DNA of 64,000 bases, taken from positions 1 to 64,000 of the forward strand of contig JAIRRJ010000095.1 of NCBI GenBank assembly GCA_031256035.1, written 5' to 3'. The notes beneath the pieces are model-generated. The model made no database searches. It had not been told where the DNA came from and saw only the letters and a program-made list of their open reading frames with translations. This document shows, in pieces, positions 1,388 through 49,305 of this stretch; the first letter of the stretch is position 1; the number at the start of each line of letters is the position of its first letter. This DNA comes from Treponema sp. GTDB taxonomy: Bacteria; Spirochaetota; Spirochaetia; Treponematales; Breznakiellaceae. Made by a program: the position numbers and the translations under genes.

Positions 1388-2398
1388 ATGCTAAACAAAG
1401 CAATGCTAATCCCCGTCACCCTAACCCACGGCGGTATCATGGTGAACTATCAATGTACCGCCGCATGCAGGCATTGCCTTTATGCCTGTTCTCTTTCCCG
1501 CAGGCCGGGATACATAAGCGCAGAAACAATTCGCAATGTTTGCACCTTGCTCCGAAAAGCAGGTTGCGTTTCGGTGCATATTGGGGGCGGAGAGCCTTTT
1601 CTCAATTTTGAAGGGCTTTTGACGTCAGTTCGTGAATTGTTGTTGGGTGGAGTTAACGTTGATTATGTCGAGACAAATGCCTTCTGGGCGCATGAGGATT
1701 GTGCCATTGACAAGCTTCGTGCGCTGTTGAGTGCGGGGGTGAATACGCTCTGTATATCAATCGATCCCTTCCATGTAGAGTATGTGCCTTACGGTTATCC
1801 GCTGCGGCTGACGCAGCTTTGTGATAAAGCGGGGATGGGTTATTTTTTGTGGAGGCAGGAATTGCTTCCTTTATTTTCCGCGCTCTCGCCGGAACAAGTT
1901 CACGATTATGCGACATTGAAACAGCAAATCGGAGCGGACTATGTCTTGAAAACAGCACGGGCTTATGGTGTTCATTTTGGAGGACGGGCGATCAATATCG
2001 AGGAAGATTTCGCGGAGCGGAAAAGTCCGCATTTTGCAACGAAGTTACCCGCGCAGTCGCTAATTGACGGGAAGCTCTGCCGTAATCTGCTTTCAGGAAA
2101 TCATTTTCACGTGGACATGGAAGGTTATTACAGTCCTCCCGGTTGTACCGGATTGCGCCTGCCGTTAGCTGAAGTGGTCAATGGCATATCCGAAGGAGCT
2201 TACCCTGCTTTCGAAGCTCTGTATCACCGGGGGTTAGCAGGGCTTCTTGATCTGGCTCACGATACCGGTTTTGTTGAAGATGACGCTGGTTACACTTCAA
2301 AATGCGCTCTGTGTTTTCACGTTAGGCGACATCTTGCCGTGCAGGGTTTTGCCGAACTGGACCTGAATCATTATGAAGAAGCGCTTAAGTATTATTAG
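1388..2398 (+). CDS. radical SAM protein of unknown substrate
   Basis: The cysteine motif CTAACRHC (Cys23, Cys27, Cys30 from ATG 1388) is the CX3CX2C cluster-binding site of radical SAM enzymes. HIGGGEPFL follows as the SAM-contacting segment. Later cysteines (GKLCRNLL, PPGCTGLRL, CALCFHVRRH) may hold an auxiliary cluster. The open frame extends to 1331 and another in-frame ATG lies at 1439, so the start is uncertain. About residues 215-223 (HFATKLPAQ) are encoded by a copy of the dispersed repeat E1 described under findings. That segment falls between a PH and a ...DGKLCRNLLSGNHFHV region that reads as family core. Substrate unknown. The 45-aa peptide upstream is the only obvious neighbour. 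Confidence 0.75.
   Translation: MLNKAMLIPVTLTHGGIMVNYQCTAACRHCLYACSLSRRPGYISAETIRNVCTLLRKAGCVSVHIGGGEPFLNFEGLLTSVRELLLGGVNVDYVETNAFWAHEDCAIDKLRALLSAGVNTLCISIDPFHVEYVPYGYPLRLTQLCDKAGMGYFLWRQELLPLFSALSPEQVHDYATLKQQIGADYVLKTARAYGVHFGGRAINIEEDFAERKSPHFATKLPAQSLIDGKLCRNLLSGNHFHVDMEGYYSPPGCTGLRLPLAEVVNGISEGAYPAFEALYHRGLAGLLDLAHDTGFVEDDAGYTSKCALCFHVRRHLAVQGFAELDLNHYEEALKYY
2030..2056 (+). repeat. dispersed repeat E1, copy A (inside radical SAM gene)
   Basis: The core TGCAACGAAGTTACCCGCGC differs from the other E1 copies at one base. In this gene it is read as HFATKLPAQ. Other copies lie at 43037-43062, 45287-45312, 48654-48674, 48679-48700 and, inverted, 48829-48855. Confidence 0.75.
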
Positions 2399-2464
2399 CA
2401 GATATAGTTAAGGCAGGCAATAAGTAGGTTTTTGCCACGCCGGCCTAAAGCCTCGAAGAGAGGT

Positions 2465-2680
2465 TTGCGGCCTCGTCAAATTCGCTGTGCAATAAATGTT
2501 CTGAAAATTTGCTTAGTAATTCTTTTATCCAATGCGACCATTGGTTCAGCAAGTGTGTTATCAATTGCATCAAATCCGCTCACGGCAACGTCAATGCCGT
2601 TTTCGGTATACTTAAACGCATTTGAAAGCAGAGTATTCAAAATTTGTTTAATGCGCAGTTCGTCACCTAACAATTCCAAG
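2465..2680 (-). pseudogene. collapsed relic of a second hybrid histidine kinase
   Basis: Read on the minus strand, three non-adjacent parts of the intact kinase at 2733-5525 recur here in the same order. First is the ATP-binding N-box segment (LGDELRIKQILNTLLSNAFK, about 2598-2680). Next is a receiver fragment (VSGFDAIDN, about 2555-2597). Last is the extreme C-terminus (HLLHSEFDEAA in another frame, about 2465-2545). Hundreds of codons between them are gone. A 67-codon open frame still spans the stitched pieces but shifts frame relative to the parent. This indicates an old tandem duplicate that has decayed by internal deletions. It is unlikely to make a working protein. Confidence 0.7.
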
Positions 2681-2732
2681 GGATTGCATTTTGCGATAAG
2701 CGCGTTTTATTGATGTCAGCACTCCGAGGCTT

Positions 2733-5525
2733 CTATTTTCTTAGATAATCATCCGCAACAGCCACAGCCTCGTCAAATTCGCTGTGCAGTATATGTTCAG
2801 CTATTGTGTTTAACAGTTCTTTTGTATTGTGCGACCATGTTTTGTCCCTCAGTTCGGCAAGTATATTCTTCGCAGTTTTTTTCTCATACGCTGCGCACGC
2901 TTCCCGGATAGCCAGCAGTTTTTCATTCAGATATTTCCGGTCGTCTTCTGTGTCTTCCGCAGTTTCATCATCCACGGGCTTTATTTTTGTTATAACTTTT
3001 TGCAGCTCTTCCAGAAACTCCTGAGTTTTTGACGCGATAAGGCTGATGTTTTTTTCTCTGCCTTCATGTTCCAGAGTTTGCGCAACGGCGGAAAGACTCG
3101 CTTCGCCCACATTTGCAAGGGCGCTTTTCATCGCGTGAATGTTGATGATATACGTTTGCAGGTCAGAGTCAGTCCGGAAATTATTTTTATGCACAGTTTC
3201 AATGACGGTTAACGCTTTTTCAGCGTCACGCGCAAAAATTTCAGCTAATTGCGGGGCTACGGATTGATTTACTGTAGCGGCGATCTGCTTTTTATCCTGT
3301 TCGGTCCTTTCACGATGTGCGGTTTCAATCACTTCCACTGACTGTTTATCATGTATCAGTTTAATCAGAGAAATATTTAACTGGCGTATATCTATTGGCT
3401 TGGAAATAAATCCGTCAAATCCGCTCTTTAAGAAAACTTCAGCCTGTCCCGCCAACGCGTTAGCTGTAAGGGCGACAATAGGATGATTGTACCCCATGCC
3501 GCGGATTTGCTTTGTCGCCTCAATGCCATCCATTTTGGGCATCATGTGATCCATGAAAATAATGTCATATGCATTGCCATCTTTTATTTTATCAATTGCT
3601 TCAAATCCGCTCATGGCAGTGTCGATCTTTAACCCGTACGGAGTCATCAGCCCTTTGGCTACAAACAGGTTCGTTTCCACATCGTCCACAATTAAAACAT
3701 GACCATACGGCATGGGTTCGTATTTTATCTGTGCCTTTTTTTCCTGTATAATGTTGCTAAGTTTAAACTGTTGCAGGTTTTCCGCCAGCTCTTTGCCTAT
3801 CATGCCGCTTATACCAATGCCATCGGTCTTTTGAGGCAGACGCACAGTAACCGTTGTACCTTCACCCACTACGCTCTTTACGGCTATTTTTCCTTGCATT
3901 AATTCAACTAAGTTTCGCGTAATGGTCATGCCGAGACCGGTGCCTTCGGTGGAGCGGTTGGCTTCCAGATTAAACCGGGTATATTCATCGAATAGCTTGC
4001 GCACCTGTTCGGCAGTCATACCCCGTCCCGTATCACTTACCTGGAACACAAGCGTAACGAGAACCGCCCCGCCTCTTCCTATACATTCGGCGTTAACTGT
4101 CATTGTAACTTCGCCGCGATCGGTGTATTTAAATGCGTTTGAAAGTAAATTGTTTAAAATCTGTTTTATGCGAAGCTCATCTCCTACAAGTGTTGACGGT
4201 ATATTCTCGTCTACTTTCAGCTTAAACTCGACAGGGCTGCTTTCATAACGAACGATGTTTAATTGCACAATATCGTTTATGAGACTTGCCGTTTCATATT
4301 TTTCAGGAGTCAATTCAAGTTTACCCGCTTCAATTTTGGATAGATCCAGTATGTCGTTTATAATGCAGAGCAAAAGATCGCCGGAATTATAAATTTTGGC
4401 AAGCGCTATCCTTATGTCTGTGGAAAGGGTGTTGTTTTGAAGTTGAATTTCGGTAATGCCTAAAATAGCGTTCAATGGCGTTCGTATTTCATGGCTCATG
4501 GTAGCAAGGAAGTTGCTTTTCTGCTGAGTTCTTATATCTGATTTTCTTTTTGCCTTGGTGATATGATACAACATGACGCTTAACGCTGATGCGAGCGCGC
4601 TTGCCAGCACAACAAGGAACAGAGCCATTTGCCTCACGCTCCTGTAGTATTCTCTGACAGGAGTTACAACGCCAAGATACCATCCGTACTTGATTTGACG
4701 GAAAAAGACGACAGAATTTTCTCCGCTGAAGTTTTTTACCCTGCGTTCTGTGATGTTCCCGCCGTGTTCCAGTTCTTCCGCAACAACCGCAATATCGTGA
4801 TCCATGCTGCCGTATAACGGTACGCCGGGTTCATATATGTAGGGATGGGCAATAACGTCCAGTTGGTTGTTAAGCAATAACCCGTAACTGTTCGGCGTTA
4901 ATTTTAAATCAAGAGTAGGACTGATGATTCCCTCAATAATAACATCCAGACAGACTATGCCCAATGAACGGCGTTCATTATCGAATATCCGGCGGCTGAA
5001 GGTAATAACAGTTTTTCCGCTTAACATTTCCGTATATGGTTCTGTTGCCGCTATTCTGCCGTTAGCTGCAGTTGCTGCTGTATACCAAGGACGTTTTCGG
5101 ATTACAAAATCATCAGGCGGCGTCCAATTCCGGCCTGATATATATTTTCCGCCGAATTTTTCAAAAAAACCGTATGTGCCGTTAAAACCCGTCATGCGGT
5201 CTCTGTTGTTAAGCATAAAATTGGTAATGTCCTGCATATATACCGACAGCTTGTTCTCGTCATCGCCGCGTAGAATCATGGAACGGATCGTTTCAGAATA
5301 ACCTCCAAGAAATGTTTCCGGTTCCTGAAGACCTGCCAATATTTCGGCCTCTGTGGAAGACAAGGCGTTTTTTGCATCATTTTCCAGATGCTCGCGTTCA
5401 ATTCTGCTGACAAAGTAATAGCTCAAAAATCCCATCAACGCAAATGCAATTACAATAATTGCTACCTGCACATTTATAAGATTCAGGAGTTTTGATGTCT
5501 TTTCACCAGAACGCATTCGAAACAT
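2733..5525 (-). CDS. hybrid sensor histidine kinase (Cache sensor, HisKA, HATPase, receiver, HPt)
   Basis: This is a 930-aa membrane phosphorelay protein. A transmembrane helix (about 14-34) and a second near 300-320 enclose an extracytoplasmic Cache-like sensor. The HisKA box has ATMSHEIRTPLNAILG with the phosphoaccepting His near 345. The N-box DELRIKQILNNLLSNAFK (about 455), DTGRGM and GTGLGM form the ATPase. The receiver has LIVDD and IIFMDHMMPKMDG with the acceptor Asp near 660. The C-terminal HPt has INIHAMKSALANVG near 798. It lies 23 bp downstream of the receiver gene at 5549-5908 and is surely co-transcribed with it. Start ATG 5525 has AGG-rich sequence upstream. The ligand is not predictable; Cache domains usually bind small metabolites. 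Confidence 0.92.
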   Translation of the reverse strand: MFRMRSGEKTSKLLNLINVQVAIIVIAFALMGFLSYYFVSRIEREHLENDAKNALSSTEAEILAGLQEPETFLGGYSETIRSMILRGDDENKLSVYMQDITNFMLNNRDRMTGFNGTYGFFEKFGGKYISGRNWTPPDDFVIRKRPWYTAATAANGRIAATEPYTEMLSGKTVITFSRRIFDNERRSLGIVCLDVIIEGIISPTLDLKLTPNSYGLLLNNQLDVIAHPYIYEPGVPLYGSMDHDIAVVAEELEHGGNITERRVKNFSGENSVVFFRQIKYGWYLGVVTPVREYYRSVRQMALFLVVLASALASALSVMLYHITKAKRKSDIRTQQKSNFLATMSHEIRTPLNAILGITEIQLQNNTLSTDIRIALAKIYNSGDLLLCIINDILDLSKIEAGKLELTPEKYETASLINDIVQLNIVRYESSPVEFKLKVDENIPSTLVGDELRIKQILNNLLSNAFKYTDRGEVTMTVNAECIGRGGAVLVTLVFQVSDTGRGMTAEQVRKLFDEYTRFNLEANRSTEGTGLGMTITRNLVELMQGKIAVKSVVGEGTTVTVRLPQKTDGIGISGMIGKELAENLQQFKLSNIIQEKKAQIKYEPMPYGHVLIVDDVETNLFVAKGLMTPYGLKIDTAMSGFEAIDKIKDGNAYDIIFMDHMMPKMDGIEATKQIRGMGYNHPIVALTANALAGQAEVFLKSGFDGFISKPIDIRQLNISLIKLIHDKQSVEVIETAHRERTEQDKKQIAATVNQSVAPQLAEIFARDAEKALTVIETVHKNNFRTDSDLQTYIINIHAMKSALANVGEASLSAVAQTLEHEGREKNISLIASKTQEFLEELQKVITKIKPVDDETAEDTEDDRKYLNEKLLAIREACAAYEKKTAKNILAELRDKTWSHNTKELLNTIAEHILHSEFDEAVAVADDYLRK

Positions 5526-5548
5526 TCGTTTTCACCTATCCTTGAATG

Positions 5549-5908
5549 CTATTTAAGATTTTTCTGAATACTGTCAAGCAGCGTGGGCGGAGAAAATGGT
5601 TTTGTTACAATGCCTGCCGCGCCCAGCTTCGAGGCACGTTCTTCAACAGAAGCATTGTTGGTGCCTGTCAAAAAAATCACCGGAATGCCCGCCAATGCGC
5701 TGTTGGCTTTCAACCGCTCCAGAGCTTCGAACCCGTTCATTTCGGGCATCTCAATATCCAGTAAAATCAAATCCGGCTTCATCTTTTCCAGAAGTGAGAA
5801 CATTTTCGCTGCAGACGGCATGGTCATCACACTGTACTGATCTTCCAGCGCTTCTTCTGCCATTGTCAGGTTTGTGTCGCTATCATCAACTATAAAAATT
5901 GTGTTCAT
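5549..5908 (-). CDS. single-domain response regulator (CheY-like receiver)
   Basis: The 119-aa protein is a stand-alone receiver. It has acidic pair VDDSD at residues 8-9, phosphoacceptor in LILLDIEMPEMNG (Asp near 52), switch Thr in FLTGT and conserved Lys in VTKPF. There is no output domain, so it must act by protein contact or as a phosphate shuttle. It is the first gene of a two-gene operon with the hybrid kinase that follows at 5525. The likely path is kinase His, kinase receiver, HPt, then this receiver. GAGGACGCT lies before its start codon. Confidence 0.9.
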   Translation of the reverse strand: MNTIFIVDDSDTNLTMAEEALEDQYSVMTMPSAAKMFSLLEKMKPDLILLDIEMPEMNGFEALERLKANSALAGIPVIFLTGTNNASVEERASKLGAAGIVTKPFSPPTLLDSIQKNLK

Positions 5909-6085
5909 AGCGTCCTCACTTTCCGGTGAAATATGAATAATTTGATGAAATAATCAAGGTAGAATATTGAAAGTTGCCTTTATCATACAAATTCACCTAT
6001 ATTATTGTAGACTATTTTGATAATTGATTTTTGTCAAGTAAATAATTGATCCACAACGCTAATTAAGTAATAATTAACCTTAATT

Positions 6086-9000
6086 ATGGGGAAAAGCCGG
6101 TATGGCGCAACGCCCTGGGGTTTCTGGTTTATCGAAGTACTTGACAGTTACCAAATGGGAGCGCGTCTTGAACGGGGCAGAACATACGCCAATACCGGCA
6201 GAGTGCTTTCCCTGGAACTTGACGCGGGCAGGGTGCTTGCCAAAGTTGAAGGTAATTTCCGTCCCTTTTACAAAGTAACGATAAATTTTCCTCCTCTCAA
6301 AGAAGCGGAACAAGTCTACCGGATGATCGAAGGAGACACGCTCCTTCTTGCGCAGATTGCCGCCGGTGAGTTACCCGAAACTTTTTTAAAAAAACTTAAA
6401 GCCGAGAGGATTAACCTTATTCCCTCACGCTGGCAGGAGATGAAGAGATCATGCACCTGTCCCGATTACGGAGATCCATGCAAACACATGGCGGCGCTTT
6501 ATTATATTATCGCAAAGGAAATTGACGCTGATCCGCACACACTTTTCAGGCTGAGGGGCATGGATATTGAGGCGAGATTCGGAAAAACGGCAGTACACAA
6601 GATCATGCCGCCTTTTACCGTAACATTTGTGGAAGACGGAAAACCCGCTGAGACAAAACATGAGCCGTTTGAGTTTGAAGAAATTCCTCATTGCGGAGAA
6701 TTAATCACCGCCCTGCTTCCGCCTTCTCCGCCTTTTTGTGTAACAAATTTTGCCATGGCTATGGCGGAATTTTACCATCACTGCGCAGGTTATTCGTCAT
6801 GGGAACAGGCGGAGAAAAATGAAAAAAATGCGGCAAATACTGAACATGATTTTTCCCGCTCGGAGTGGACTATTATGTGCCGTAATCCTGGTCCTGGAGC
6901 AGAGCCGGTTCTGTTTGCGGATGATGTAAACGGCAATAAAAAAAGATACTCGCTTCTTAATGCCTTTGAACACTTTGTCGGTTTTTCATCCGAAGATGGA
7001 ACAGCATCTTATTCATTTCTTTTTTACCTGTTTAAATTTCTCAATCTGATTTGTTCTTCCTGCGCGTTTGTTCCCTATGTGTCAACCGGATACGACACAT
7101 TGAAGATTATCTGGCGGCCTTTTGAAACATTGCCGCCGGTTTCTGCAATGCTTAAGGCTCTTACACTCCGCGAATGCGGGATGCTCAGGGCTTTCCCGCC
7201 ATTCCGCATCAGCTTTACGGGAAAAAATGTGAATTCTTCGGGACGCCAGTTAGTTGACGCAAAGAGTACGGTTGACCTTCTTGTTTCCGCGTTTTTGAAT
7301 GAATGGGTTAGGCGAAAATTCCTGGTTTTTCGCGAAACAATCAGCAAGAAAACAGGCGGCGGGAAAGAATACTGCGAAACACTCGATCTGTTTTTTACAG
7401 GAATTACAATTGATATTTCTTCTCCGGCAAAACGTTCGCTGCCGGCAGCAATCGACAGGTGGCTTTCTGTGTTACAGATAAATTTTGCCACATATCGTTA
7501 CAGCCTGAACATAAAAGATTTGCACAAAAAAGACGAACCGGGTAACACTCTTGATTTTGCGCTTTCCATGGATGTTATTTCTGAAAATGAAGAAGGGATA
7601 AAGAAAACCCCGCTTTCAAAATGCAGAGATTTGGAAATACTCCGTGCGCCTGTGGCATTGTCAAACTATTTACCTGAGATTCGCGAACTTGTTTCTTCAC
7701 CATCATCGGCGCGCAGCCCGTCCGTGCCGCTTTCCGAAGCGCGTCTGGTTGCGTTTCTCGATTCCGCCGCTCCGCTGCTGAGCCGCCTTGGATTGAAAAT
7801 AAATCTTCCCAAAGCCCTTGCGCGTGAGCTGAAACCACGGCTTGTGGTTAAAGGAAAATCTGTGGGAGGGTCGCTGGTAAAATACCTTGATTTGAATACT
7901 TTGCAGGATTTTGAATGGCAGATAGCTGTCGGAGATGAGACATTGTCTCTTGATGAGTTCAGGGAACTGGTCAGGCAAAAACGCGACATGGTTCGTTTCA
8001 GGGATGGTTTTATTAAAATGGACCCGGAAGCCTTTGCCCGGCTTCTTAAACAGGCGAAGAATTCAACGCCGAACATAAATGATTTCTTGAAAGCGCATTT
8101 TACAGGCGACAGCATTCTTGCCTTTGATACCCGCGAAACAATTAACAATCTTTTCAGGGAACATGATTTTCCCGTTCCCGAATCTCTTGCCGGAGATTTG
8201 CGACCGTATCAAAAGCGGGGCTACAACTGGGTGTGTTCACTTTTGCTTTCCGGCTTTGGCTGTATACTGGCGGACGACATGGGGCTGGGAAAAACAATTC
8301 AGTCCATTGCCGTTTTACTGCGGCTGAAAAAAGAAGGGCTTCTGGGAGGAGGCTGCCTTGTCGTTGCACCGGCGGCGCTTTTGAACAACTGGGAAAAAGA
8401 ACTGAGCCGCTTTGCGCCATCGCTGGATGTGTCGCGGTATCACGGGTACAACCGCCGCCTTGACCGGAAGCGGGATGTTTTTCTCACTACCTACCAAACC
8501 GCGGTTCGTGATGCGGAGAAATTGAAAAAAGAAACTTTTTCCCTGCTGCTGGTGGATGAAGCTCATTTGATGAAAAATGCCGAAACCCGCGTATCGCGCA
8601 CGGTTAAGCAGCTCCGCTCCAAATACCGGCTGGCTCTTTCAGGAACTCCGGTAGAAAACCGCCTTGAAGATTTTCGTTCTCTTTTTGATTTTATTCTTCC
8701 CGGTTATCTGGGCAATCCCGCTGATTTCAAAGAGCAGTACCGCATCCCCATCGAAGTTATGCGAAACCGCGAAAAAGCGGAATCACTGCGGAAGATCACT
8801 TCTCCCTTTCTTCTGCGGCGGCTTAAAACCGATAAAAAGATTATAAAAGATTTGCCTGAAAAAATAGTCGCCAATGAATACGCAGTGCTGGAAAAAGAGC
8901 AGGCGGCGTTATACGAAAGTGTGGTTTCCGAATCAATACGAAAATCGGAAAAGACCGATGCAAAAGAACGCTCCGCCCTGATTCTCTCCATGCTCACCTC

Positions 9001-11881: not shown

Positions 11882-11896
11882 AAGGAGCAGGGGCGG

Positions 11897-35736: not shown

Positions 35737-38968
<3,232 letters not shown>

Positions 38969-39322: not shown

Positions 39323-39362
39323 AAGAACTCCTTTGCAGTTTTAGTCCTGCCGACTTATAAAA

Positions 39363-39400
39363 AAGCCTGCTGTCCAACGGACAGCTTACAGGCTGTTTTT
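39363..39400. terminator. hairpin with T-runs on both sides, ahead of the lipoprotein gene
   Basis: AGCCTG/CAGGCT outer and CTGTCC/GGACAG inner arms, with a bulge. T-runs follow on both strands. It lies between a good minus-strand promoter (39482-39510) and the lipoprotein start, so it could be an attenuator. Confidence 0.55.
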
Positions 39401-39481
39401 CCACAGAAAAATTGTATTTACAGTATAATGGGGATTTACGCTTAAGGGGAAATGTTTGCCTCTGTTTTGCATAGTTAGTGT

Positions 39482-39510
39482 AATTTACAATAAAATGAGA
39501 AAAGTGTCAA
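39482..39510 (-). promoter_or_regulatory. promoter upstream of the lipoprotein gene
   Basis: TTGACA (plus 39505-39510), 17 bp, TAAATT (plus 39482-39487), reading leftward, just after the fab operon hairpin. Confidence 0.5.
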
Positions 39511-39512
39511 GC

Positions 39513-39546
39513 GGTGAAAAATCGGCATCCCTGCCGATTTTTCACC
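39513..39546. terminator. 15-bp perfect hairpin after the fab operon
   Basis: GGTGAAAAATCGGCA pairs perfectly with TGCCGATTTTTCACC around a 4-nt loop. It lies about 90 bp after fabZ and probably ends the fab transcript. Confidence 0.6.
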
Positions 39547-39634
39547 TAGAAGTTTTGCCGCAGGTAAAACTTCAGCTAAAGCTTTGGAAACAGCGCCATC
39601 CTTGGCGCGGGAACATCCGCTATTTACGGTAAGT

Positions 39635-40063: not shown

Positions 40064-40067
40064 GGTT

Positions 40068-41339: not shown

Positions 41340-41416
41340 TTTAACTCCTATGTTGCTCCGCCGAAGGGCGGAGCGGTAAAATCGAAGCCAAACTCTGTTT
41401 GGCAAATCTCCTGTCC
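41340..41416 (-). promoter_or_regulatory. intercistronic hairpins between fabG and fabF
   Basis: Two stems: GCTCCGCC, GAAG, GGCGGAGC (41355-41374) and CCAAAC, TCT, GTTTGG (41388-41402). They could be processing or attenuation signals within the fab transcript. Confidence 0.5.
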
Positions 41417-42151
41417 TTAAAAATACATTCCGCCGTCTACGGGCAATACCTGCCCGGTAATATACGAAGATAAATCAGACGCGAAGAAGAGCGCCACTCC
41501 CGCGACATCTTCCTGCTTTCCGGTTCTCTTCATTGGTATAACATCGATCATTTTTTTCTGCACTTCTTCCGGCACTGCCGCGGTCATGTCGGTTTCAATG
41601 TAACCGGGCGCAATCGCGTTAACCCGCACGCTCCGGCTTGCGTATTCACTTGCAAGGCTCTTTGTTACGCCGATAAGCCCTGCCTTGCTGGCGGCATAAT
41701 TCGCCTGCCCGCCGTTGCCGTGAATCCCGACAACGCTTGCCATGTTGATGATTGAACCTGTGCGCTTTCGCGTCATATCCCTGCCAACGAGACGGGAAAT
41801 CAAAAAAGCCGCAGTCAGGTTAATGTCCAGCACCTTCTGCCAGTCTTCAATGGACATCCTGAACGAAAGGTTGTCCTTGGTGATACCGGCGTTATTAACC
41901 AATATATCAAACCCGCCGGATTCTTTCAGGCTGCTTTCAATAACCGCTTCTATTTCGTTTGTTTTTGAAAGATCAAGGGTTATCCAGTGAAGTTTCCCTT
42001 TCGCGGCTTCGACACGCGCCGAAAGGTCTTCCGGTGTTTTGTAATCCAGTCCCCAGACTTCCGCTCCCTGTGCGATAAACAGATCCGCGATTGTTTTCCC
42101 AATGCCTCTGTAGGCTCCGGTTATCAACGCTTTTTTATTTTCCAGCATCAT
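41417..42151 (-). CDS. fabG: FabG, 3-oxoacyl-ACP reductase
   Basis: This is a 244-aa short-chain dehydrogenase. The NAD(P) loop is TGAYRGIGKTIA. The catalytic set has NNAG, MASVVGIHG (Ser) and YAASKAG (Tyr, Lys). GYIETDMT and a final GQVLPVDGGMYF are typical of FabG. The ATG overlaps the fabD stop by 4 nt. It reduces 3-ketoacyl-ACP in the cycle run by this operon. Confidence 0.94.
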   Translation of the reverse strand: MMLENKKALITGAYRGIGKTIADLFIAQGAEVWGLDYKTPEDLSARVEAAKGKLHWITLDLSKTNEIEAVIESSLKESGGFDILVNNAGITKDNLSFRMSIEDWQKVLDINLTAAFLISRLVGRDMTRKRTGSIINMASVVGIHGNGGQANYAASKAGLIGVTKSLASEYASRSVRVNAIAPGYIETDMTAAVPEEVQKKMIDVIPMKRTGKQEDVAGVALFFASDLSSYITGQVLPVDGGMYF

Positions 42152-43140
42152 ACTCCCTCTCCTATCTTCGATATATCCTCTACAGTTCCGGCGATGAAGC
42201 AGGGAATTGAACTCCCTGAATCTTTCCAGAGACCCTGCAATACTTTACCGGGACCGACTTCAAGACAAGCTTCAATGCCAAGAGCCGCGACAGCAGCTTC
42301 TTCTTCCACCCAGCGAACAGGGCTTGTAATTTGAGCAAGCGCGAGTTTTTTCGCCTCCGCGCCGGAAGTTACCTGTTTGCCTGTAACATTTGAAAAGAGC
42401 GGAATAGAAGGATCGCTGAAGGTTACCGCTTCCAGAGCCGGGCGGAATGCCTCGGCGGCATCGGCGATCAACGGCGAATGGAAGGGACCGGCAACCTGCA
42501 GGCGGATAACCCGCTTTGCGCCCGCTTCCTTGAAACGCGTCTCCGCTTCGGTAAGGGCGGCGGCGGTTCCGCTGACCACAAGCTGCTTGGGCGAATTGAT
42601 ATTCGCCGCGTAGAGGTCTTTCAGTCCTGCTGCGCTCCATTGGGCAATCAGGGATTCAACTTGTTCGGGAGCAAGCCCGACAATCGCCGCCATGCCCGGC
42701 GCCGCCGAAGCATCGCCTCCCGCTGCATCCCGCAACTTGTCGGCGGATTTTTGCATCGCCTCGCTGCGCGCCTTGATCAAACGGAAACAATCGGCGGCGC
42801 TGATCACACCGCTGTAAACAAGAGCGGCATATTCGCCAAGGCTGAAACCGGCGCATGCGGCTGGGCTGTAGCCCTGTTCGCCAAGATACGCCGCCGCCGC
42901 AAGATTGGCGAGGGTAATCGCCGGCTGCGCGACATCGGTGCGTTTCAAGGTATCAGCATCGGAATCCCGCAGGAGGGCTTCCATATCCTTGCCAAAAATT
43001 TCAGACGCTTTTGCAAAAAGTTCCTTTACCGCGTCGCATTTTGCAACGGAGTTTCCCGCGCATGAAAGAAAATCAAGCGCCATTCCCTGAGACTGCGCTC
43101 CCTGACCGGGAAACAGATACACGACTTTGTTTTTATTCAT
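42148..43140 (-). CDS. fabD: FabD, malonyl-CoA:ACP transacylase, with repeat-derived insertion
   Basis: The 330-aa enzyme has FPGQGAQSQGMALDFL, GFSLGEYAALVYSG (catalytic Ser near 100), GPFHSPLI and a final EVGPGKVLQGLW. Residues about 27-35 (CAGNSVAKC) are encoded by a dispersed E1 repeat in inverted orientation. They fall in the loop between the oxyanion strand and helix, before AVKELFAKAS, where other FabD proteins are shorter. The protein should still work, since all catalytic parts are present. It overlaps fabG by 4 nt. Confidence 0.92.
   Translation of the reverse strand: MNKNKVVYLFPGQGAQSQGMALDFLSCAGNSVAKCDAVKELFAKASEIFGKDMEALLRDSDADTLKRTDVAQPAITLANLAAAAYLGEQGYSPAACAGFSLGEYAALVYSGVISAADCFRLIKARSEAMQKSADKLRDAAGGDASAAPGMAAIVGLAPEQVESLIAQWSAAGLKDLYAANINSPKQLVVSGTAAALTEAETRFKEAGAKRVIRLQVAGPFHSPLIADAAEAFRPALEAVTFSDPSIPLFSNVTGKQVTSGAEAKKLALAQITSPVRWVEEEAAVAALGIEACLEVGPGKVLQGLWKDSGSSIPCFIAGTVEDISKIGEGV
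43037..43062 (-). repeat. dispersed repeat E1, copy B (inside fabD)
   Basis: TTGCAACGGAGTTTCCCGCG on the plus strand. Read on the coding (minus) strand it gives AGNSVA, so its orientation relative to the gene is opposite to copies A, C and F. Confidence 0.75.
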
Positions 43141-43153
43141 TCACTTACCTCAT

Positions 43154-44188
43154 TTACCAAATTATTATGTTTCCGCCGTAGGTAAGGCCTCCGCCAAAGC
43201 CTACGGTTAAAAGTAAATCTCCCTTCTTCAATAATCCGTTTCTGTTCATTTCGTCAAGGGCGAGGGGAATTGACGCTGCCGAAGTGTTGGCGTATTCCTC
43301 AATATTTAGATAAAACCTTTCAAGAGGGATGCGCAGCCGTCTTGCCGCCGCCTGAACAATCCGCGCATTTGCCTGATGCGGTATAATTCTCGCAATGTCG
43401 TCAATCTTTATATCCTCGGCTTTCATAAGAGCGTCTATGGTGTCAGTTACTGCCTTTACAGCAAAATTGTACACTTCCTGACCGTTCATCTCAATATAAA
43501 TGGGTTCGGTCATTGTTTCGCCTTTTTTATACGGATTGCGTGAACCGCCCCTGCGCATTATCAGACTTGAATTGCCCGACCCGTCAGCGTATATAAGAGA
43601 GCGTAAAATGCCGCGCTTGCCGTCAGCGCCGGTTTTTTCCAGAATCACCGCTCCTGCGCCGTCTCCGAAAAGAACGCACGTTCCTCTGTCATTCCAGTCA
43701 GTTACTTTGGTCAATATCTCAGAACCTATCACCAAAGCCCGCTTCCGCTCTTGCCTGATGCTCAAAAGTCCGGCGGCAGTTTCAAGGCCATAGACAAAGC
43801 CGGTACAGCCGGCGGTAACATCCATCGCGGCGGCATTGCGCGCTCCGATTTTGTTCTGCACAATACATGCAGTGGAAGGAGTGCCGTAAAAATCCGGCGT
43901 TGCCGTTGCCAGAATAATCATGTCGATGCTTCCGGCAATTTCGGATGCGGCTCTGTTCCTTTCTGCAATGTCCGCACCGGTATAGCCCGCCGCCATTGCC
44001 AAGGCGTTTTTCGCCGCTTCCACAGCCAGATCGCTGCATGCGGTATTTTCATCAGCTATGTGGCGATTTCCAATTCCGGTGTGGGACCTGATCCACTCGT
44101 CGGTTGTATCGATTTGAGCCGATAAATCATTGTTGCTCACCCTTTTCGGCGGTACTGCTTTTCCTGTTCCAATAATTTCAATTGCCAT
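43154..44188 (-). CDS. fabH: FabH, beta-ketoacyl-ACP synthase III
   Basis: The 344-aa enzyme starts fatty-acid synthesis. The triad is in DVTAGCTGFVYGL (Cys near 128), IIPHQANARI (His) and EEYANTSAASIPLAL (Asn). It ends FGGGLTYGGNIIIW. It is about 15-20 residues longer than usual, due to a stretch GYTGADIAERNRAASEIAGS near 68-88. First gene of the fab operon, 13 bp before fabD. Confidence 0.94.
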   Translation of the reverse strand: MAIEIIGTGKAVPPKRVSNNDLSAQIDTTDEWIRSHTGIGNRHIADENTACSDLAVEAAKNALAMAAGYTGADIAERNRAASEIAGSIDMIILATATPDFYGTPSTACIVQNKIGARNAAAMDVTAGCTGFVYGLETAAGLLSIRQERKRALVIGSEILTKVTDWNDRGTCVLFGDGAGAVILEKTGADGKRGILRSLIYADGSGNSSLIMRRGGSRNPYKKGETMTEPIYIEMNGQEVYNFAVKAVTDTIDALMKAEDIKIDDIARIIPHQANARIVQAAARRLRIPLERFYLNIEEYANTSAASIPLALDEMNRNGLLKKGDLLLTVGFGGGLTYGGNIIIW

Positions 44189-44198
44189 TTTTTCTTTT

Positions 44199-44260
44199 AT
44201 GACAAATTTTTAATTTTTGTCATGCTCCTAATATTCTAAAAAATTTCCTGATTTTGTCAA
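44199..44260 (-). promoter_or_regulatory. fab operon promoter with downstream operator
   Basis: On the minus strand TTGACA (plus 44255-44260), 16 bp, TAGAAT. Just after the predicted start lies an inverted repeat at 44199-44223 with arms ATGACAAA and TTTTGTCAT. It does not match FapR or FabT sites that I know. A second perfect inverted repeat (ACCCAAAAA/TTTTTGGGT, 44273-44293) lies further upstream. Confidence 0.65.
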
Positions 44261-44329
44261 GATATTTTTTTGACCCAAAAACAGTTTTTGGGTTGCGAAT
44301 TTGCTGAAAAACGGCAAAAATGGCTGGAA

Positions 44330-45331
44330 ATGGCAAACCCATACCTGACGCCGAGCCTGAAGGGCGTCGAACCAAAGGTTCGCGGTTCCCTCCCGTATAA
44401 ATCCTGCCGGCTCTGTCCCCGTTCCTGCGGCGTTGACCGTACCGCCGGAGAGAAGGGTTATTGCGAAGAAACCGCCGAACTGCGGGTTGCCGCCGCGTTG
44501 CTGCACTGCGGGGAGGAGCCGCCTCTGGTCGGAACAACAGGTTCGGGGACGATTTTTGTCAGCGGGTGCAGCTTGAGGTGTGTCTTTTGCCAGAATTATC
44601 AAATTTCGCAAGGAGACGCCGCCGCGCAGGCAATGGGCAAGCCGGTTTCAACTGAAGAATTTGCGGCAATCTGCATTGCGCTTCAAAACAAGGGCGCGGA
44701 GAATATCAACATTGTTACAGGCAGCCACGCAATCCCCGCAATTGTTCAGGGGGTTATCGCCGCGAGAAAAGCGGGGATGAAGATTCCTCTGCTTTGGAAT
44801 TGTTCAGCTTATGAAAACACAAGTGCGCTTGAAATGTTAAGGGATCATGTTGATGTATACCTGCCGGACCTAAAAACAATGGACAGCGAAATTGCGGAAA
44901 AATTCTTTAATGCGCCGGATTATCCGGCAACGGCGGCGGCGGCAATTATAAAAATGATGGATATGTCACGCGAAAAGGTAATTGTCCGCCACCTAATCCT
45001 GCCGGATTACCTTGAATCCACACACCGCGTACTGCGCTGGTTTGCAGATAACGCCAAAGACCGCGCTTTGCTTTCCCTAATGACGCAATACACCCCAATT
45101 CCCGGCAGGCAGCAGACGGCGCCCAATCGTTTCGTAAGCGAAAAAGATTACAAAACCGTCCTTGGCTGGCTTGAGGAATTTAACATTGAGGAAGGTTTTT
45201 GTCAGGAGCTTGTTACCGGCAGTGATTGGCTGCCGGATTTTTTGCGTCCTAATCCCTTTTCATCCGAACTTTCCGTTCCCGTGTGGCATTTTGCAACGCA
45301 GTTTCCCGCGCATTTTACCAGCCGAACTTAA
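44330..45331 (+). CDS. PflX-like radical SAM protein (COG1313), with repeat-derived ends
   Basis: The 333-aa protein has an N-terminal CRLCPRSCGVDR, a radical SAM motif SGCSLRCVFCQNYQIS (CX3CX2C), and NIVTGSHAIPAIVQG. This matches COG1313 proteins, homologues of pyruvate formate-lyase activase of unknown target. Residues 5-22 (YLTPSLKGVEPKVRGSLP) are encoded by repeat E2, and residues about 320-328 (HFATQFPAH) by repeat E1 just before the stop. The core begins at YKSCRLCP and ends at SVPVWHF, so both additions are at the ends. The start is uncertain. The 3' end overlaps the convergent barrel gene by 17 bp. Confidence 0.82.
   Translation: MANPYLTPSLKGVEPKVRGSLPYKSCRLCPRSCGVDRTAGEKGYCEETAELRVAAALLHCGEEPPLVGTTGSGTIFVSGCSLRCVFCQNYQISQGDAAAQAMGKPVSTEEFAAICIALQNKGAENINIVTGSHAIPAIVQGVIAARKAGMKIPLLWNCSAYENTSALEMLRDHVDVYLPDLKTMDSEIAEKFFNAPDYPATAAAAIIKMMDMSREKVIVRHLILPDYLESTHRVLRWFADNAKDRALLSLMTQYTPIPGRQQTAPNRFVSEKDYKTVLGWLEEFNIEEGFCQELVTGSDWLPDFLRPNPFSSELSVPVWHFATQFPAHFTSRT
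44342..44395 (+). repeat. dispersed repeat E2, copy 1
   Basis: Begins TACCTGACGCCGAGCC and ends GGTTCCCTCCCG. It contains two stems, GACGCC/GGCGTC and CGAACC/GGTTCG. It matches 48567-48620 (inverted) at 51 of 54 positions. Confidence 0.85.
45287..45312 (+). repeat. dispersed repeat E1, copy C
   Basis: TTGCAACGCAGTTTCCCGCG, read as HFATQFPAH at the very end of the PflX-like protein and ending 3 bp before the convergent barrel gene's stop. Confidence 0.75.
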
Positions 45332-46601
45332 ATCCAAAAGAAACTCCGAAACCGCCGCCCGAAAAGCTTTTCAAAAAATCCTGCGACCGGAAATCAACAC
45401 CCAAATCAAATTCAAAAATTCTAAGATTTAACGCCAAGTTAATACTGTTTTTCCAGAGACGATCTTCATAACCAATTCCAGCTGTAGCAAGAAACATATT
45501 TGCCAAATTGAGGCGTGTTTTCACATTTGCTTCAATTGAGAACGGTTCAAGATAAAGTGGATTTATTGAAAAACCAAGCGCTGGAACGAATGTAATCATT
45601 CTGGTTTTAAACGGCCGCCAATCCGCCCAGAAAAGCATCTTGAAGGGGCGAAAAATCAATATTTCTTCCTGCCCATAAATCATGTCGCTTAACTCGGTGT
45701 CAAACGATGATTCCATATCTTCAAGGTCAAAATTTCCCTCCATCTTCATATAACCGTATGTCTTCATATAATGGCTTAGTGTGGCCGGAATCATCGGTAA
45801 ATGAATTAAATCCAGTCCTACGTCAAAATCCAGAAAACTGAATTTGTCTTTTAACCCAAGAACTTCCGACAGGGGATATTCCGCTCCCAGATGAAAATCA
45901 AAACCCATTTTAGCGTTAAGGTCAAAAATACTATCAGGGAAGTCCTCAAGCGGGAAAGGCGTATATATGGACACATCATATTTCATGCTAAGTTCAGGCT
46001 TATCGTCCGCTTTGTTGACGTATGATATATCCGATTTTACATACATGAGAGGATAATACACAGAGGGTTTTATTTTTACCTTGAGTTTTTTGATGTGAAA
46101 AAAAGCATAGGGGCTTACATCGACAAAAGCCGCTCCGCCAACTTCTGACTTATCACCGGAGGTTTGATTTAAGAAAATAGTATTCCCGGAAAGGCCGACA
46201 ATACCCATCGTTTCCACGCCGGTAAAAAGGCCAAACCCCCATTTGCTTTTGCTATATGTAAAATAAAGTGGAGAAAGTACAACATCCAGGTTAATTTTCA
46301 TACCATCGTGAAGTTCATCAAGATCAATCACCATGGTTTCCTGAAAGATCTGACTGGCAGTAATAAAATCATTTGCAAAACCAACTGAAAGGTTTAACAA
46401 CCCAATTTCAAAAGCGCGATCTTCTATGGGAAGCAGTTTCTTTTTTTGGGCGGGCTGTTGTTCTTCTTCTGTTGTATCGTCTTCCACCCAGGCTGCTTCA
46501 CTATTTTCCCATTCATCATGATCATTTGCCCATGAAGGAGCATCTTGTGCGTACAGTGAAAAAGACATGATGATCAGGAAAAAAACAAATAATCTTTTCA
46601 T
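45315..46601 (-). CDS. outer-membrane beta-barrel protein, probable
   Basis: The start at ATG 46601 gives a signal peptide KRLFVFFLIIMSFSLYAQ; the frame opens 4 codons earlier. An acidic stretch (EWENSEAAWVEDDTTEEEQQ) follows. Amphipathic strands then alternate through 400 residues and end in FGVSFGFKFGW, a barrel C-terminal signature with a final aromatic residue. No named family is recognised. It lies 15 bp downstream of the lipoprotein gene in one operon. Confidence 0.7.
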   Translation of the reverse strand: MKRLFVFFLIIMSFSLYAQDAPSWANDHDEWENSEAAWVEDDTTEEEQQPAQKKKLLPIEDRAFEIGLLNLSVGFANDFITASQIFQETMVIDLDELHDGMKINLDVVLSPLYFTYSKSKWGFGLFTGVETMGIVGLSGNTIFLNQTSGDKSEVGGAAFVDVSPYAFFHIKKLKVKIKPSVYYPLMYVKSDISYVNKADDKPELSMKYDVSIYTPFPLEDFPDSIFDLNAKMGFDFHLGAEYPLSEVLGLKDKFSFLDFDVGLDLIHLPMIPATLSHYMKTYGYMKMEGNFDLEDMESSFDTELSDMIYGQEEILIFRPFKMLFWADWRPFKTRMITFVPALGFSINPLYLEPFSIEANVKTRLNLANMFLATAGIGYEDRLWKNSINLALNLRIFEFDLGVDFRSQDFLKSFSGGGFGVSFGFKFGW

Positions 46602-46616
46602 TTGATCATCCACATC

Positions 46617-47735
46617 CTAAAATTCCTGCGTATAATCAATCTTGGCTTTGAAGTACATTTCGGTTACCTTGAAATCTTGCGGGATACGTAGTATTTTGCC
46701 TTTTTCATATTGAATTCTGATTTTTGGTATAAACGGAATGTTTTCCGGTTTATTTATCTTCTTCATAGCGGCTTCATTAAACATGAATGAGAGAGAGTTC
46801 CCTGCAATTGGATTTTGAAACTTAAGTTCATCACTCTTTTTTTTGTCCTCAACATACAGAGTTCTGCCGGTAAAGGGATTTTTATTTAACACCATTCTAA
46901 ATTCCAGTTCGCGCACCATGTCGGACATAGAATCTTCGCCGCTTTTTCTGCCAAAAAGGTCTGATGTACCAAACATATCTTCCGGAAATTTTACATTTGA
47001 CGGATCTTCTTTTGCTATAAATTTCATCTCCAGCCAGATAATGAGTTCCGCCATTATTGATTGTTCAGAGACTATGAAATTTTCTGAAATAACCTTATTC
47101 TCTGGTATATAAGCGTAATAGTTAAAGGTTATATTCCCATTAGAGTTCATCTGTTCCGTAAGATCAATTTCTTCGCCGTCGACCGGCAGGGCTTTCCAAT
47201 TTTTCCAGTTATTCCGATTGACTATACTTTCGTTGGGTTCAATATCTTTTATGATTTCTGATGTCAATTTGGCGTCAAATTTTAATTCAATGTCCAAAGT
47301 CATATCAGTTTCTGAACAGCTTAAATACAGCCGGGACATGACCTTTTCAAATTCAAACCCCTCCAGAGTGTCAAACAATTCCGCCAGATCAATTGAACAT
47401 TCATTCTTATCTTTAGACAGTTCTGTGTCAGCAGTCATTTTTAATTGATTAGTACCATGAGAGGTTGAATTGCCATCAATTTTATCTATTTTAATAACCT
47501 CATTAAACAATTCTATGTGTATGAGATATGTCAGGGTTTCTGCATTACTTTTTTCAGAAATCATGCCTTCACCACTTACAAGGTCTTCTCCAAGACCGAA
47601 CATTTCGATTAGATCGCTTTTAGAAGGATACGTTACTTCCGGTGTCCCTTTGATTTGTACATTACCCGGCAAAGTACACGCGAAAACCGCTGACAACATG
47701 ACAAAAACAGCCAAAAAAGAACAGATTTTTTTCAT
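46617..47735 (-). CDS. lipoprotein, unknown function
   Basis: The start ATG 47735 gives a lipobox signal: KKICSFLAVFVMLSAVFAC. The frame extends upstream to 47795 without a better site. The 372-aa mature part is beta-rich and acidic, with strands such as NITFNYYAYIPENKVI and LIIWLEMKFIAKEDP. It is co-transcribed with the barrel gene that follows. The pair may be a lipoprotein and its outer-membrane partner. I do not recognise the family. Confidence 0.7.
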   Translation of the reverse strand: MKKICSFLAVFVMLSAVFACTLPGNVQIKGTPEVTYPSKSDLIEMFGLGEDLVSGEGMISEKSNAETLTYLIHIELFNEVIKIDKIDGNSTSHGTNQLKMTADTELSKDKNECSIDLAELFDTLEGFEFEKVMSRLYLSCSETDMTLDIELKFDAKLTSEIIKDIEPNESIVNRNNWKNWKALPVDGEEIDLTEQMNSNGNITFNYYAYIPENKVISENFIVSEQSIMAELIIWLEMKFIAKEDPSNVKFPEDMFGTSDLFGRKSGEDSMSDMVRELEFRMVLNKNPFTGRTLYVEDKKKSDELKFQNPIAGNSLSFMFNEAAMKKINKPENIPFIPKIRIQYEKGKILRIPQDFKVTEMYFKAKIDYTQEF

Positions 47736-47772
47736 ATAATGTGCCTCTAATATAAATATAATCAAAAAAACG

Positions 47773-49305
47773 CTAGGTTTCCAGATATTTAACAATTGTT
47801 TCCATTAATTCACTTTTATCTATTCCCCAGTTGCGCCCAAAGTGGGCAAAAAGCGCATCAGATAAAGCCATGAAATCATCAAAAACCGGTTGATTTGCCT
47901 GATTGTTTACCAGTCTACGGTTAACGATTAATTCCCAAAAGCGGGCAAAATTTTTGATGCGCTCAATATCAGCGGCGCTCATAGCCGAAGTTTCCAGTAC
48001 TTCGTAGGGCGGCTGCAGGCTGTAACGCATACCGAATGTTTCATTATGTCTTGCGATTGGCGCGCCGGGAAGCAGTTTCAGAATACCGAGCTGTATTTCG
48101 GTTTTACCTGCTCCCGAAAGCACACGCCAAAGCCGGTCAAAACCCATGCCAAAAGACGCAATGTCTTCGCCGGGGAGTCCCGCGATTAAGTCAACGTGAA
48201 TAATTGCGTTTGTTTTTTCGCGGATAAATCTGATGTTTTCCAGTTCTTTTTCAGGATTTGAAACCCTGCCAATGCGGGCGGCAATTTCCGGGTTAAGGGT
48301 TTGTACGCCGATTTCCAGACGCAATGTCCCCGGCGGAAAGCGGGTAAGTATTTCCCGCAATTCAGGCGGGAAAAGAGAGGGAACCATCTCGAAATGGACA
48401 ACGATGGCGTTTCCCTCAGCAATTTTTTCAAGAAAAAACTCACATATCCGCAGCGTGCGCTTAATGTTCAAATTGAAAGTCCGGTCAAGGAATTTGAAAG
48501 TCTTCGCGCCGCGCCTGACAAGAACATCCATTTCCGCGAGAAACGGTTCAAGCGCGAATTCCCGCACGGGCGGGAACCGCAAACCTTTGGTTCGACGCCC
48601 TTCGGGCTCGGCGTCAGGTACGCCACCCTGCTCTTTTACCGCGCTCAAACCTCTTGCAACGAAGTTTCCCGCGCCTAATGCAACGAAGTTTCCCGCGCAG
48701 AATTCACAGCTAAACGGGCAGCCGCGGCTTGCTTCGACATAGATCAGTTTTTTCGCGGCATCTTCATCGGTATAAAAATGATAGCCGCTCTTTAACTCGC
48801 TAAGATTGACAGGTTCAGCATTTATGAACTGCGCGGGAAACTTCGTTGCAATATGTACAGTCCGGCGCGGTGAACGCTCTGTTGTTAAAATATTTTCGCA
48901 TAATGCCCTGAAAGCCGCTTCTCCTTCGCCCCGGATGACATAATCCGCATACCGGAAAATTTTGGTAGTTGGCGGCAAATACGAAACTTCAGGACCGCCA
49001 AGAACCACAACAGGTTTTGTCTCCGCCCATGCCTTCTCCAGTTCAGCAAACAGTTCAACCGTGGCGGCATGATTCCAGATTGAAACGGAAATGCCCAGAA
49101 TTCGCGGACGGGCGGCGAGTATGGGTTCTGTTTTTTCAGCTAACGGCTGGCGGAGGGCAAACTCAATTATTTCGCATTGAGCTTCCAGTTCGCCAAGGTT
49201 GGTTTTCAGGAGACGCAGAGCAAGTGAGGGATGTATCCATTTTGCGTTGATTGTCGTCAGCAGAATGGGCTTATTTAAGAACACAGTTGGTTCTTTCGCT
49301 TTCAC
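47773..49305 (-). CDS. B12-binding radical SAM protein (DUF4080) with a large repeat-derived insertion
   Basis: The gene starts at GTG 49305, overlapping the upstream stop (TAGTG); the frame is open to 49341. About 510 aa. The cobalamin-binding half has NAKWIHPSLALRLLKTNLGE, VVVLGGPEVSYLP and IRGEGEAAF. The radical SAM cluster is ASRGCPFSCEFC. Directly after its third cysteine lie about 43 residues (from AGNFVALGAGNFVARG to GLRFPP) encoded by two E1 copies and one E2 copy, before the family sequence resumes at VREFALEPFLAEMD and TFKFLDRTFN. A third E1 copy encodes HIATKFPAQF near residue 152. A DUF4080 C-terminal domain follows. Function unknown. Confidence 0.85.
   Translation of the reverse strand: MKAKEPTVFLNKPILLTTINAKWIHPSLALRLLKTNLGELEAQCEIIEFALRQPLAEKTEPILAARPRILGISVSIWNHAATVELFAELEKAWAETKPVVVLGGPEVSYLPPTTKIFRYADYVIRGEGEAAFRALCENILTTERSPRRTVHIATKFPAQFINAEPVNLSELKSGYHFYTDEDAAKKLIYVEASRGCPFSCEFCAGNFVALGAGNFVARGLSAVKEQGGVPDAEPEGRRTKGLRFPPVREFALEPFLAEMDVLVRRGAKTFKFLDRTFNLNIKRTLRICEFFLEKIAEGNAIVVHFEMVPSLFPPELREILTRFPPGTLRLEIGVQTLNPEIAARIGRVSNPEKELENIRFIREKTNAIIHVDLIAGLPGEDIASFGMGFDRLWRVLSGAGKTEIQLGILKLLPGAPIARHNETFGMRYSLQPPYEVLETSAMSAADIERIKNFARFWELIVNRRLVNNQANQPVFDDFMALSDALFAHFGRNWGIDKSELMETIVKYLET
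48567..48620 (-). repeat. dispersed repeat E2, copy 2 (inside DUF4080 gene)
   Basis: Nearly identical to 44342-44395 but in the opposite orientation on the window. On the coding strand it is read in another frame: PDAEPEGRRTKGLRFPP here versus YLTPSLKGVEPKVRGSLP there. Confidence 0.85.
48654..48700 (-). repeat. dispersed repeats E1, copies D and E in tandem
   Basis: Two copies of TGCAACGAAGTTTCCCGCGC (48655-48674 and 48679-48698), separated by 4 bp. On the coding strand they give GAGNFVA and AGNFVA. Confidence 0.8.
48829..48855 (-). repeat. dispersed repeat E1, copy F
   Basis: Inverted relative to copies D and E. On the coding strand it reads HIATKFPAQF, the same frame as copies A and C. 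Confidence 0.8.

Follow-up and report, generated by a model that had tools for sequence, protein, structure and literature searches.

A 24-nt dispersed insertion beside GCA in Treponema: a candidate very small mobile DNA element

Small dispersed repeats (SDR) of cyanobacteria, reportedly described by Elhai and colleagues in 2008, are said to be dispersed units of 21-27 nt whose structure is backed by compensatory change. SDR5 inserts precisely at a short motif, inside HIP1, according to a passage of PMC4390886. Rickettsia palindromic elements (RPE), given as about 150 bp in a section of PMC10969869, insert in frame and add peptide to unrelated genes. For repetitive extragenic palindromic (REP) sequences with TnpA-REP, excerpts of PMC8266576 report that the cut site is chosen by a short motif in one system (REP passages also in PMC3733652 and PMC3116915), and for IS608 a part of PMC5934647 describes insertion 3' of a short fixed motif kept in the flank, the target being chosen by base pairing with the element. 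Here we describe E1, a dispersed repeat of a 64,000-nt stretch from Treponema sp. (GenBank assembly GCA_031256035.1, contig JAIRRJ010000095.1, positions 1 to 64,000; hereafter the window) and of the genome to which it belongs (the home genome, G000; 3.12 Mb in 120 contigs, 94.9% complete). Comparison between loci showed E1 to be a discrete 24-nt insertion, with the unit RCMTNNTGCAACGNAGTTNCCCGC occurring singly or head to tail at a 24-nt period, and showed orthologous or paralogous loci that cleanly lack it. We infer its mobility from these comparisons, and consider E1 to be probably a very small mobile DNA element, self-guided to GCA and served by an enzyme in trans.

E1 units in the window and in the home genome

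The 20-mer core TGCAACGAAGTTTCCCGCGC was used as search pattern and matched the window six times (three exact copies and three with one mismatch), at 2035 (+), 43042 (+), 45292 (+), 48655 (+), 48679 (+) and 48831-48850 (-), confirming the six copies of the initial annotation, whose coordinates for the single plus-strand copies began about five bases early since flanking CATTT had been taken in. No match was obtained in 100 dinucleotide shuffles of the window. In the home genome, at up to three mismatches, the core was abundant (141 places, 62 forward and 79 reverse) and the reversed core used as control had no match; chance origin of the copies was ruled out by the shuffles and by this control. 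The units of the window, each given with its adjoining GCA, and the gene that holds three of them were as follows:

2029..2052 (+): E1 unit of 24 nt in the radical SAM gene 1331-2398 (+), adding eight residues, HFATKLPA; GCA at 2053-2055.
43036..43059 (+): E1 unit in the fabD-like gene 42148-43140 (-), opposite-strand reading AGNSVAKC; GCA at 43060-43062.
45286..45309 (+): E1 unit near the 3' end of the radical SAM gene 44270-45331 (+), adding ATQFPAHF; GCA at 45310-45312.
48649..48672 (+): first E1 unit of an array of two within the DUF4080 gene 47773-49341 (-).
48673..48696 (+): second E1 unit of this array; its adjoining GCA, at 48697-48699, encodes the third Cys of the radical SAM motif (read as TGC on the minus strand).
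48833..48856 (-): the third of the E1 units held by the DUF4080 gene, adding HIATKFPA; GCA at 48830-48832 (-).
47773..49341 (-): DUF4080 host gene, B12-binding / radical SAM / DUF4080 (Pfam PF02310, PF04055 and PF13311), with three E1 units and one copy of a second repeat, E2.

The fabD-like gene had a Pfam match to Acyl_transf_1. The host genes had been called unrelated, which holds for the insertion points and fails for the proteins, three of the four having a radical SAM domain. The ATKFPA-type reading yielded HFATKLPAQ (2035), HFATQFPAHF (45292) and HIATKFPAQF (48831), and the opposite-strand reading AGNSVAKC (43042), AGNFVALG and AGNFVARG (48679/48655); the peptides earlier given as HFATKFPAQF and AGNFVA, three times each, were thus right in kind, the members of each set being similar and not identical.

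A sample of 51 home-genome stretches around listed copies plus the window (438 kb in all; the other 28 of the 141 places lie outside it) contained 113 copies at up to three mismatches, 51 of them exact, distributed over 89 sites (72 single, 10 double and 7 triple, so that 41 copies were in arrays), with a start-to-start distance in arrays of exactly 24 nt. The unit pattern was RCMTNN-TGCAACG[N]AGTTNCCCGC, directly 5' of GCA. Conservation began some seven bases ahead of the core and stopped one base past its GCGC, the most variable places within E1 being positions 8 and 13 and the six bases that precede the core. Arrays mixed unit variants in the home genome, and some arrays were homogeneous (e.g. 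L076 and L082); their length varied at one orthologous site, with five units in the genome G020 and one in G019 (L082/L074).

Loci lacking E1 were sought in alignments, only those passing filters being listed, and at least one alignment was tagged as empty at 14 of 136 E1 sites, a few of them weak (L061, L093 and L100). Six loci taken as chance matches (L052, L053, L065, L066, L073 and L084) were excluded from this set and from the covariation, double-change and free-triplet sets used below, whereas L078 (Oscillospiraceae), which is outside the spirochaetes, was retained. The copy at 2035 corresponded to a precise 24-nt gap, joined at GCA, in the alignment with a paralogue in L044 (86.8% identity over 295 nt); L044 in turn showed another 24-nt insertion (L044:1112), distinct from the first, against the window paralogue (90.3%). 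For the copy at 45292 the empty site GTGTG^GCATTTTACC was present in L172 and L160, and the E1 peptide of this second radical SAM gene was absent from all the fetched congeners (24/24; 27 had a match). The same was true of the fabD-like protein (24/24; 25 had a match), its site at 43036..43059 showing a 24-nt gap against, for example, L147. The two-unit array of the DUF4080 gene, a 16-aa insert directly after the third Cys of CxxxCxxC, corresponded to a 48-nt gap against L130, L122 and L116 (GCA at the join) and L112 (ACA), and 23/23 informative congeners lacked it (of the 26 with a match 24 were fetched, L129 among them having no residues there). For the third DUF4080 copy, in a region of variable length, ATKFPA was found in no fetched congener, and the candidate empty sites were L112 (GCA) and L119 (GCG).

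The E1 hosts included an acyltransferase, MnmA, TruA, Der, IspH and HisC; E1 inserts were found even in housekeeping enzymes. For three hosts outside the window, TruA, HisC and Der, the E1 peptide was present in none of the 24 congeners fetched for each. A gap of motif length was counted in 17/24 congeners for HisC and 11/24 for Der, the remainder being other small length changes, and by script in 0/24 for TruA, whose gap was aligned next to the motif: eight gap columns are visible in 23 of its rows and seven in that of L311. Solved relatives of HisC and IspH were without the E1 residues, and the alignments of MnmA, TruA and Der had gaps nearby, not exactly at the insert. The absence of the residues from the fetched orthologues, together with the abundance of the core in the genome, supports the earlier proposal of a frame-keeping short mobile DNA that adds peptide, in the manner of RPE.

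The reading frame was kept in every window copy, as first noted; since the unit is 24 nt, or eight codons, selection is not needed to explain this, and because the commonest unit is also free of stops in every frame, insertion in a gene would give an eight-residue insert. When left-end variants were tested in tandem, 10 of 16 were open in six frames, including the commonest, GCATTT, and six closed at least one frame, including GCATAA and GCTACT, the latter from G056, a single-contig genome of another genus of the same family. All the window copies lie inside genes, as claimed, but this did not extend to the genome: only 61 of the 89 home-genome sites were in predicted coding sequence (CDS), below the 82% coding background of those stretches (p = 0.002), as called by a home-made gene caller that missed the host of the 2035 copy (1331-2398). 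In 800 contiguous kb of G056, not picked around individual copies, CDS held 18/31 pattern sites, compared with a coding share of 82% (p = 0.002); GCA was missing on the right of 7 of the 31, and some are probably spurious. All six frames were used (gene strand: 21, 8 and 7 sites; opposite strand: 12, 7 and 6), though not uniformly (p = 0.007), ATKFPA being the commonest reading.

Insertion next to GCA and putative guide pairing

At single sites of the home genome the right triplet was GCA in 64/72 and the left triplet in 33/72 (p = 4e-8; the p-values treat related copies as independent, so significance is overstated). Of its array junctions, 16/24 had GCA; a difference was apparent against right ends (p = 0.027) and not clear against left ends (p = 0.065). 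In seven G056 arrays, the 13 junctions were GCT (n = 7), GCC (n = 4) or GCA (n = 2) and resembled the left ends of units there, whereas the right end was GCA in 7/7 (p = 0.0005). In the DUF4080 gene it is the right GCA, not the left ACC, that serves as a conserved Cys codon. The G056 junctions, the triplets of single copies and the DUF4080 Cys codon together indicate a unit RCMTNNTGCAACGNAGTTNCCCGC inserted 5' of GCA without duplication. Comparison showed that at several sites the GCA to the right of E1 is also present in the empty locus; E1 lies equivalently 3' of TGC on the other strand. Single empty sites were often ambiguous on the register (HisC and TruA), as orthologues carry both readings at synonymous positions. 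A target-site duplication of GCA was ruled out, the left and right triplets being different, and a register with the right GCA as element end and the left triplet as target is disfavoured by the G056 arrays and the DUF4080 Cys codon.

Compensatory changes had been spotted by eye ahead of a covariation test, which was performed on 216 copies (148 distinct 27-nt sequences). Where three or more double changes were available for a pair of columns, the strongest associations were (2,20), with p = 4.9e-8, and (5,11), with p = 4.6e-7, both of them Watson-Crick pairs, within TGC:GCA and within AAC:GTT; the third-ranked, (-5,20), with p = 3.6e-6, links the left with the right triplet. Double changes were Watson-Crick in 9/10 copies at (2,20), in 5/5 at (5,11), from four genomes, and in 2/2 at (1,21). 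They included the inner change AGC:GCT (G011, RGIG9108, the home genome and G012) and the outer changes TAC:GTA (G021 and G013), TCC:GGA (G006) and TTC:GAA (G012). Covariation supports two pairings: a stem AAC:GTT, and bases 1-3 (TGC) with GCA, the triplet on the right. Among copies in which guide and right triplet had been left free in the selection, the guide was TGC in 190/203, and four of the 13 non-TGC copies had the exact reverse complement on the right, a number reached in 0 of 20000 shuffles; the middle base was complementary in five of nine copies whose guide middle is not G.

A longer form of 39 nt, with both E1 ends kept and the GNA loop swapped for a hairpin such as CCGACTTTAGTCGG or CCGGCTTTAGCCGG, was represented in G056 by six copies and one of 38 nt, against 27 short ones with the same pattern, and its hairpin arms covary (CCGAC/GTCGG and CCGGC/GCCGG). 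Longer copies sharing the E1 ends in 800 kb of G056 and 438 kb of the home genome comprised only the 24, 38 and 39 nt forms, one double hairpin and a few degenerate halves. Examples of the 39-nt form were seen at G056 C1:902958, 927624, 1193909 and 1264622 (loci L325-L364); 39-nt and 24-nt units are mixed within G056 arrays, and 39 nt is likewise frame-keeping.

Candidate enzyme, mechanism and rival explanations

The likeliest enzyme class would be a Y1 (HUH) single-strand transposase. The Y1_Tnp profile matched once in the home genome (E 4.5e-14), once each in the E1 carriers G002, G011, G020 and G041, and in 13 of 30 genomes in all. The home gene (G000:C30) is an open reading frame (ORF) of 169 aa that adjoins a groEL-like ORF, named by eye, and a similar Y1-like ORF was recognized in G056 by motif only. 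In 12 fetched Y1 loci (L182-L193) no E1 was detected at up to five mismatches. The enzyme, provided in trans, would act on a folded single E1 strand, which would be joined at the trinucleotide complementary to the element's own TGC, each unit thereby guiding itself to GCA; a unit starting with GC(A/T/C) would offer further landing sites and give rise to arrays. The anatomy of E1 makes movement by a single-strand transposase plausible; the genetics leave it unproven. A bolder proposal, which we put forward only tentatively, is that E1 might be the smallest self-targeting DNA element: a 24-nt hairpin strand of frame-keeping length, whose own triplet pairs with and picks the landing trinucleotide, moved by a single-strand transposase in trans. 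The triplet pairs proposed under it are TGC with GCA and, in single or few copies, TAC/GTA, TCC/GGA, TTC/GAA, GGC/GCC and GAC/GTC.

Several observations weigh against reading E1 as a mobile element self-guided to GCA. The evidence is comparative, and the join triplet is not always GCA, being for example TGA in the fabD orthologue of L147 and GCG in the paralogue compared with L044:1112. The distribution of Y1_Tnp does not follow that of E1: the carriers G013, G019 and G021 are without it, the E1-poor G008, G010, G014, G015 and G023 have it, and no E1 at up to five mismatches lies in the 3.3-kb locus of the home-genome Y1 gene. On the strand that has E1 inserted 3' of TGC, the GCA of the pairing is downstream of the hairpin, unlike the guides of IS608, which lie 5' in the account given in part of PMC5934647. 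As to the pairing, the covariation copies were pre-selected on positions 6, 7, 9, 10, 14 and 15, columns (16,20) and (16,19) associate though they are not pairs, and pairs (1,21) and (3,19) fail in 25 and 19 of the 216 copies. Of the 13 non-TGC copies, four have GCA on the right and five have neither GCA nor the complement, and among the four complementary ones L234 represents a junction within an array instead of a native site. The folding energy of the 27-mer was no better than that of shuffles (146/200 fold as well), its minimum free energy structure being another hairpin, GCA-TTT-TGC, and the 39-nt form folded better than most shuffles (7/200), but via ACTTGC:GCAAGT instead of AAC:GTT.

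A special case of the Y1 class, which we regard as rather doubtful, would make E1 a REP-like element moved by the resident Y1 protein (G000:C30) of the REP-associated tyrosine transposase (RAYT) type, as a new RAYT/REP pair. The Y1_Tnp matches in the home genome and four other carriers, with the motif-bearing ORF of G056, fit such a pair, and in the passages of PMC8266576 the REP GTAG can guide the cut site in one system; E1, however, has no GTAG, does not stand beside a Y1 gene and shows no copy-number association, and G023 has a Y1 homologue but no E1. Templated addition would work differently: a nick leaving ...TGC-3' would anneal to GCA of a small circular or tandem template and be extended in 24-nt rounds, as by telomerase. 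Insertion directly 3' of TGC without duplication, the exact 24-nt arrays and the homogeneity of some of them (L076, L082) agree with it, yet we hold it to be unlikely, given that home-genome arrays mix variants and that the RVT_1 profile, matched in 10 of 30 genomes, had no match in the home genome, the one with most copies. At that genome's 94.9% completeness, copying by an RVT_1 reverse transcriptase was rejected on the same absence.

The remaining explanations dispense with mobility. A functional DNA signal (an uptake sequence or chromosome-organising site) spread by selection would account for a high number of near-identical copies (51/113 exact), but it seems improbable for a clean 24-nt insertion instead of a point change, and one whose exact pattern is without a match in 277 of 291 genomes of the order. 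The radical SAM domain of three of the four window hosts might suggest a conserved peptide motif or shared host-protein ancestry; six different peptides from six frames, absence from the fetched orthologues and copies outside predicted genes leave this scarcely credible, and shared protein ancestry is refuted by the empty sites. Equally negligible is an assembly or vector artefact, for which the 120 contigs of the home genome and the metagenomic origin of most named relatives could be invoked, since E1 is in the records of several projects and in a single-contig genome.

Distribution and comparison with known systems

In species genomes, an 18-base pattern matched 53 stretches, 46 of them from Spirochaetes, most titled Treponema; the other seven are about what chance gives in 257 billion bases (about 7.5 expected by our own arithmetic). 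Some relatives' record titles name ruminant samples. Sample codes such as Emb289 and Co191 presumably denote termite guts. A scan of 39 genomes (the home genome, 23 congeners and 15 of the order) at up to three mismatches gave matches in 18, of which 14 were congeners, with loads of 0 to 29 outside the home genome; the reversed control also matched five times, in four of the 39, so little weight can be put on single weak matches. The exact 18-base pattern was present in 14/291 genomes of the order, and G056, a contig of 4,059,867 bases, had 96 exact matches. The E1 load is patchy among relatives. No match to two 14-base pieces of the core, one per strand, was obtained in the literature texts searched, word searches of the literature listed no title or opening of an abstract that dealt with a spirochaete repeat like this one, and Rfam gave three matches in six sources, none to E1.

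Some side observations concern E1 copies or other repeats. At L089:6049-6130 and in L105, a viral contig, E1 stands beside a tRNA T-arm-like stretch common to the spirochaete record and the IMG/VR contig, in which ARAGORN found no tRNA; at L062:2537, in uncultured Treponema, E1 lies within an apparent other palindrome (TGTCATGCTGAAC..TTGTTTCAGCATCTC). The second repeat, E2, is a 55-nt inverted pair at window 44342-44396 and 48566-48620 (95% complementary), the latter copy within the DUF4080 reading frame (GVPDAEPEGRRTKGLRFPPV). E2-like CCGAGC/CCAAGC..GCGAAGGTTCCCCT was seen in L010, L011, L017, L029, L037, L044 and L047, and its ACC..GGT-TCCCC layout resembles the E1 stem and tail in some copies. 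The window also has a TD-2 RNA (RF03162) at 39509-39609 (-), with 65.1 bits, and a tandem repeat of 66-nt period at 56211-57473, within the ORF 55986-57566, which we guess to encode a leucine-rich-repeat-like surface protein.

If E1 moves as proposed, 24 nt would suffice for recognition, targeting and insertion, a lower bound for a mobile element, and E1 would be one of the smallest mobile elements known. It also amounts to a natural insertion-scanning experiment in protein tolerance: eight-residue inserts follow directly on the Fe-S cysteines of a radical SAM protein and are present as well in TruA, HisC and Der. Given the covariation and the single-contig genome G056, the E1 mechanism can be tested directly with short oligonucleotides.

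By size and dispersal, SDR as reportedly described are the closest known kind, one not named in the initial annotation: E1, with 24 nt and 141 places, fits the definition of 21-27 nt and dispersed, and its structure is supported by compensatory change at (2,20) and (5,11), although not by folding energy. E1 differs in being in another phylum, in frame in many genes, with GCA on the right, in 24-nt head-to-tail arrays and in covarying with that triplet. Like RPE, it inserts in frame in unrelated genes and adds peptide, but the analogy first drawn with them had to be refined, as E1 is 24 nt with a 3-bp inner stem and no perfect palindrome, uses six frames, is found also outside predicted genes, forms tandem arrays and has a fixed GCA on the right. 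With REP it has in common a short hairpin as unit, a genome that encodes a Y1 HUH protein and target choice, whereas its consensus lacks GTAG and CGTC, it does not flank the Y1 gene and it is mostly in genes (61/89 sites). Unlike miniature inverted-repeat transposable elements (MITE), its consensus has no terminal inverted repeat, and its left and right triplets differ in composition. Integrons of Treponema appear in the literature (PMC3607928, by its listing). Integron attC was rejected as a candidate, E1 joining at GCA, unlike attC cores, which are cut at GTT. The IS200/IS605 family is resembled in insertion 3' of TGC (TGC^ on the minus strand of the unit) without target duplication, with exceptions in fabD orthologues. 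The TGC-GCA pairing may recall that of guide and target, the triplet being on the other side of the hairpin, and E1 carries no gene and has one short hairpin in 24 nt. Because E1 departs from RPE, REP and MITE in defining traits examined here and shares some traits with IS200/IS605, we place it among the very small mobile repeats.

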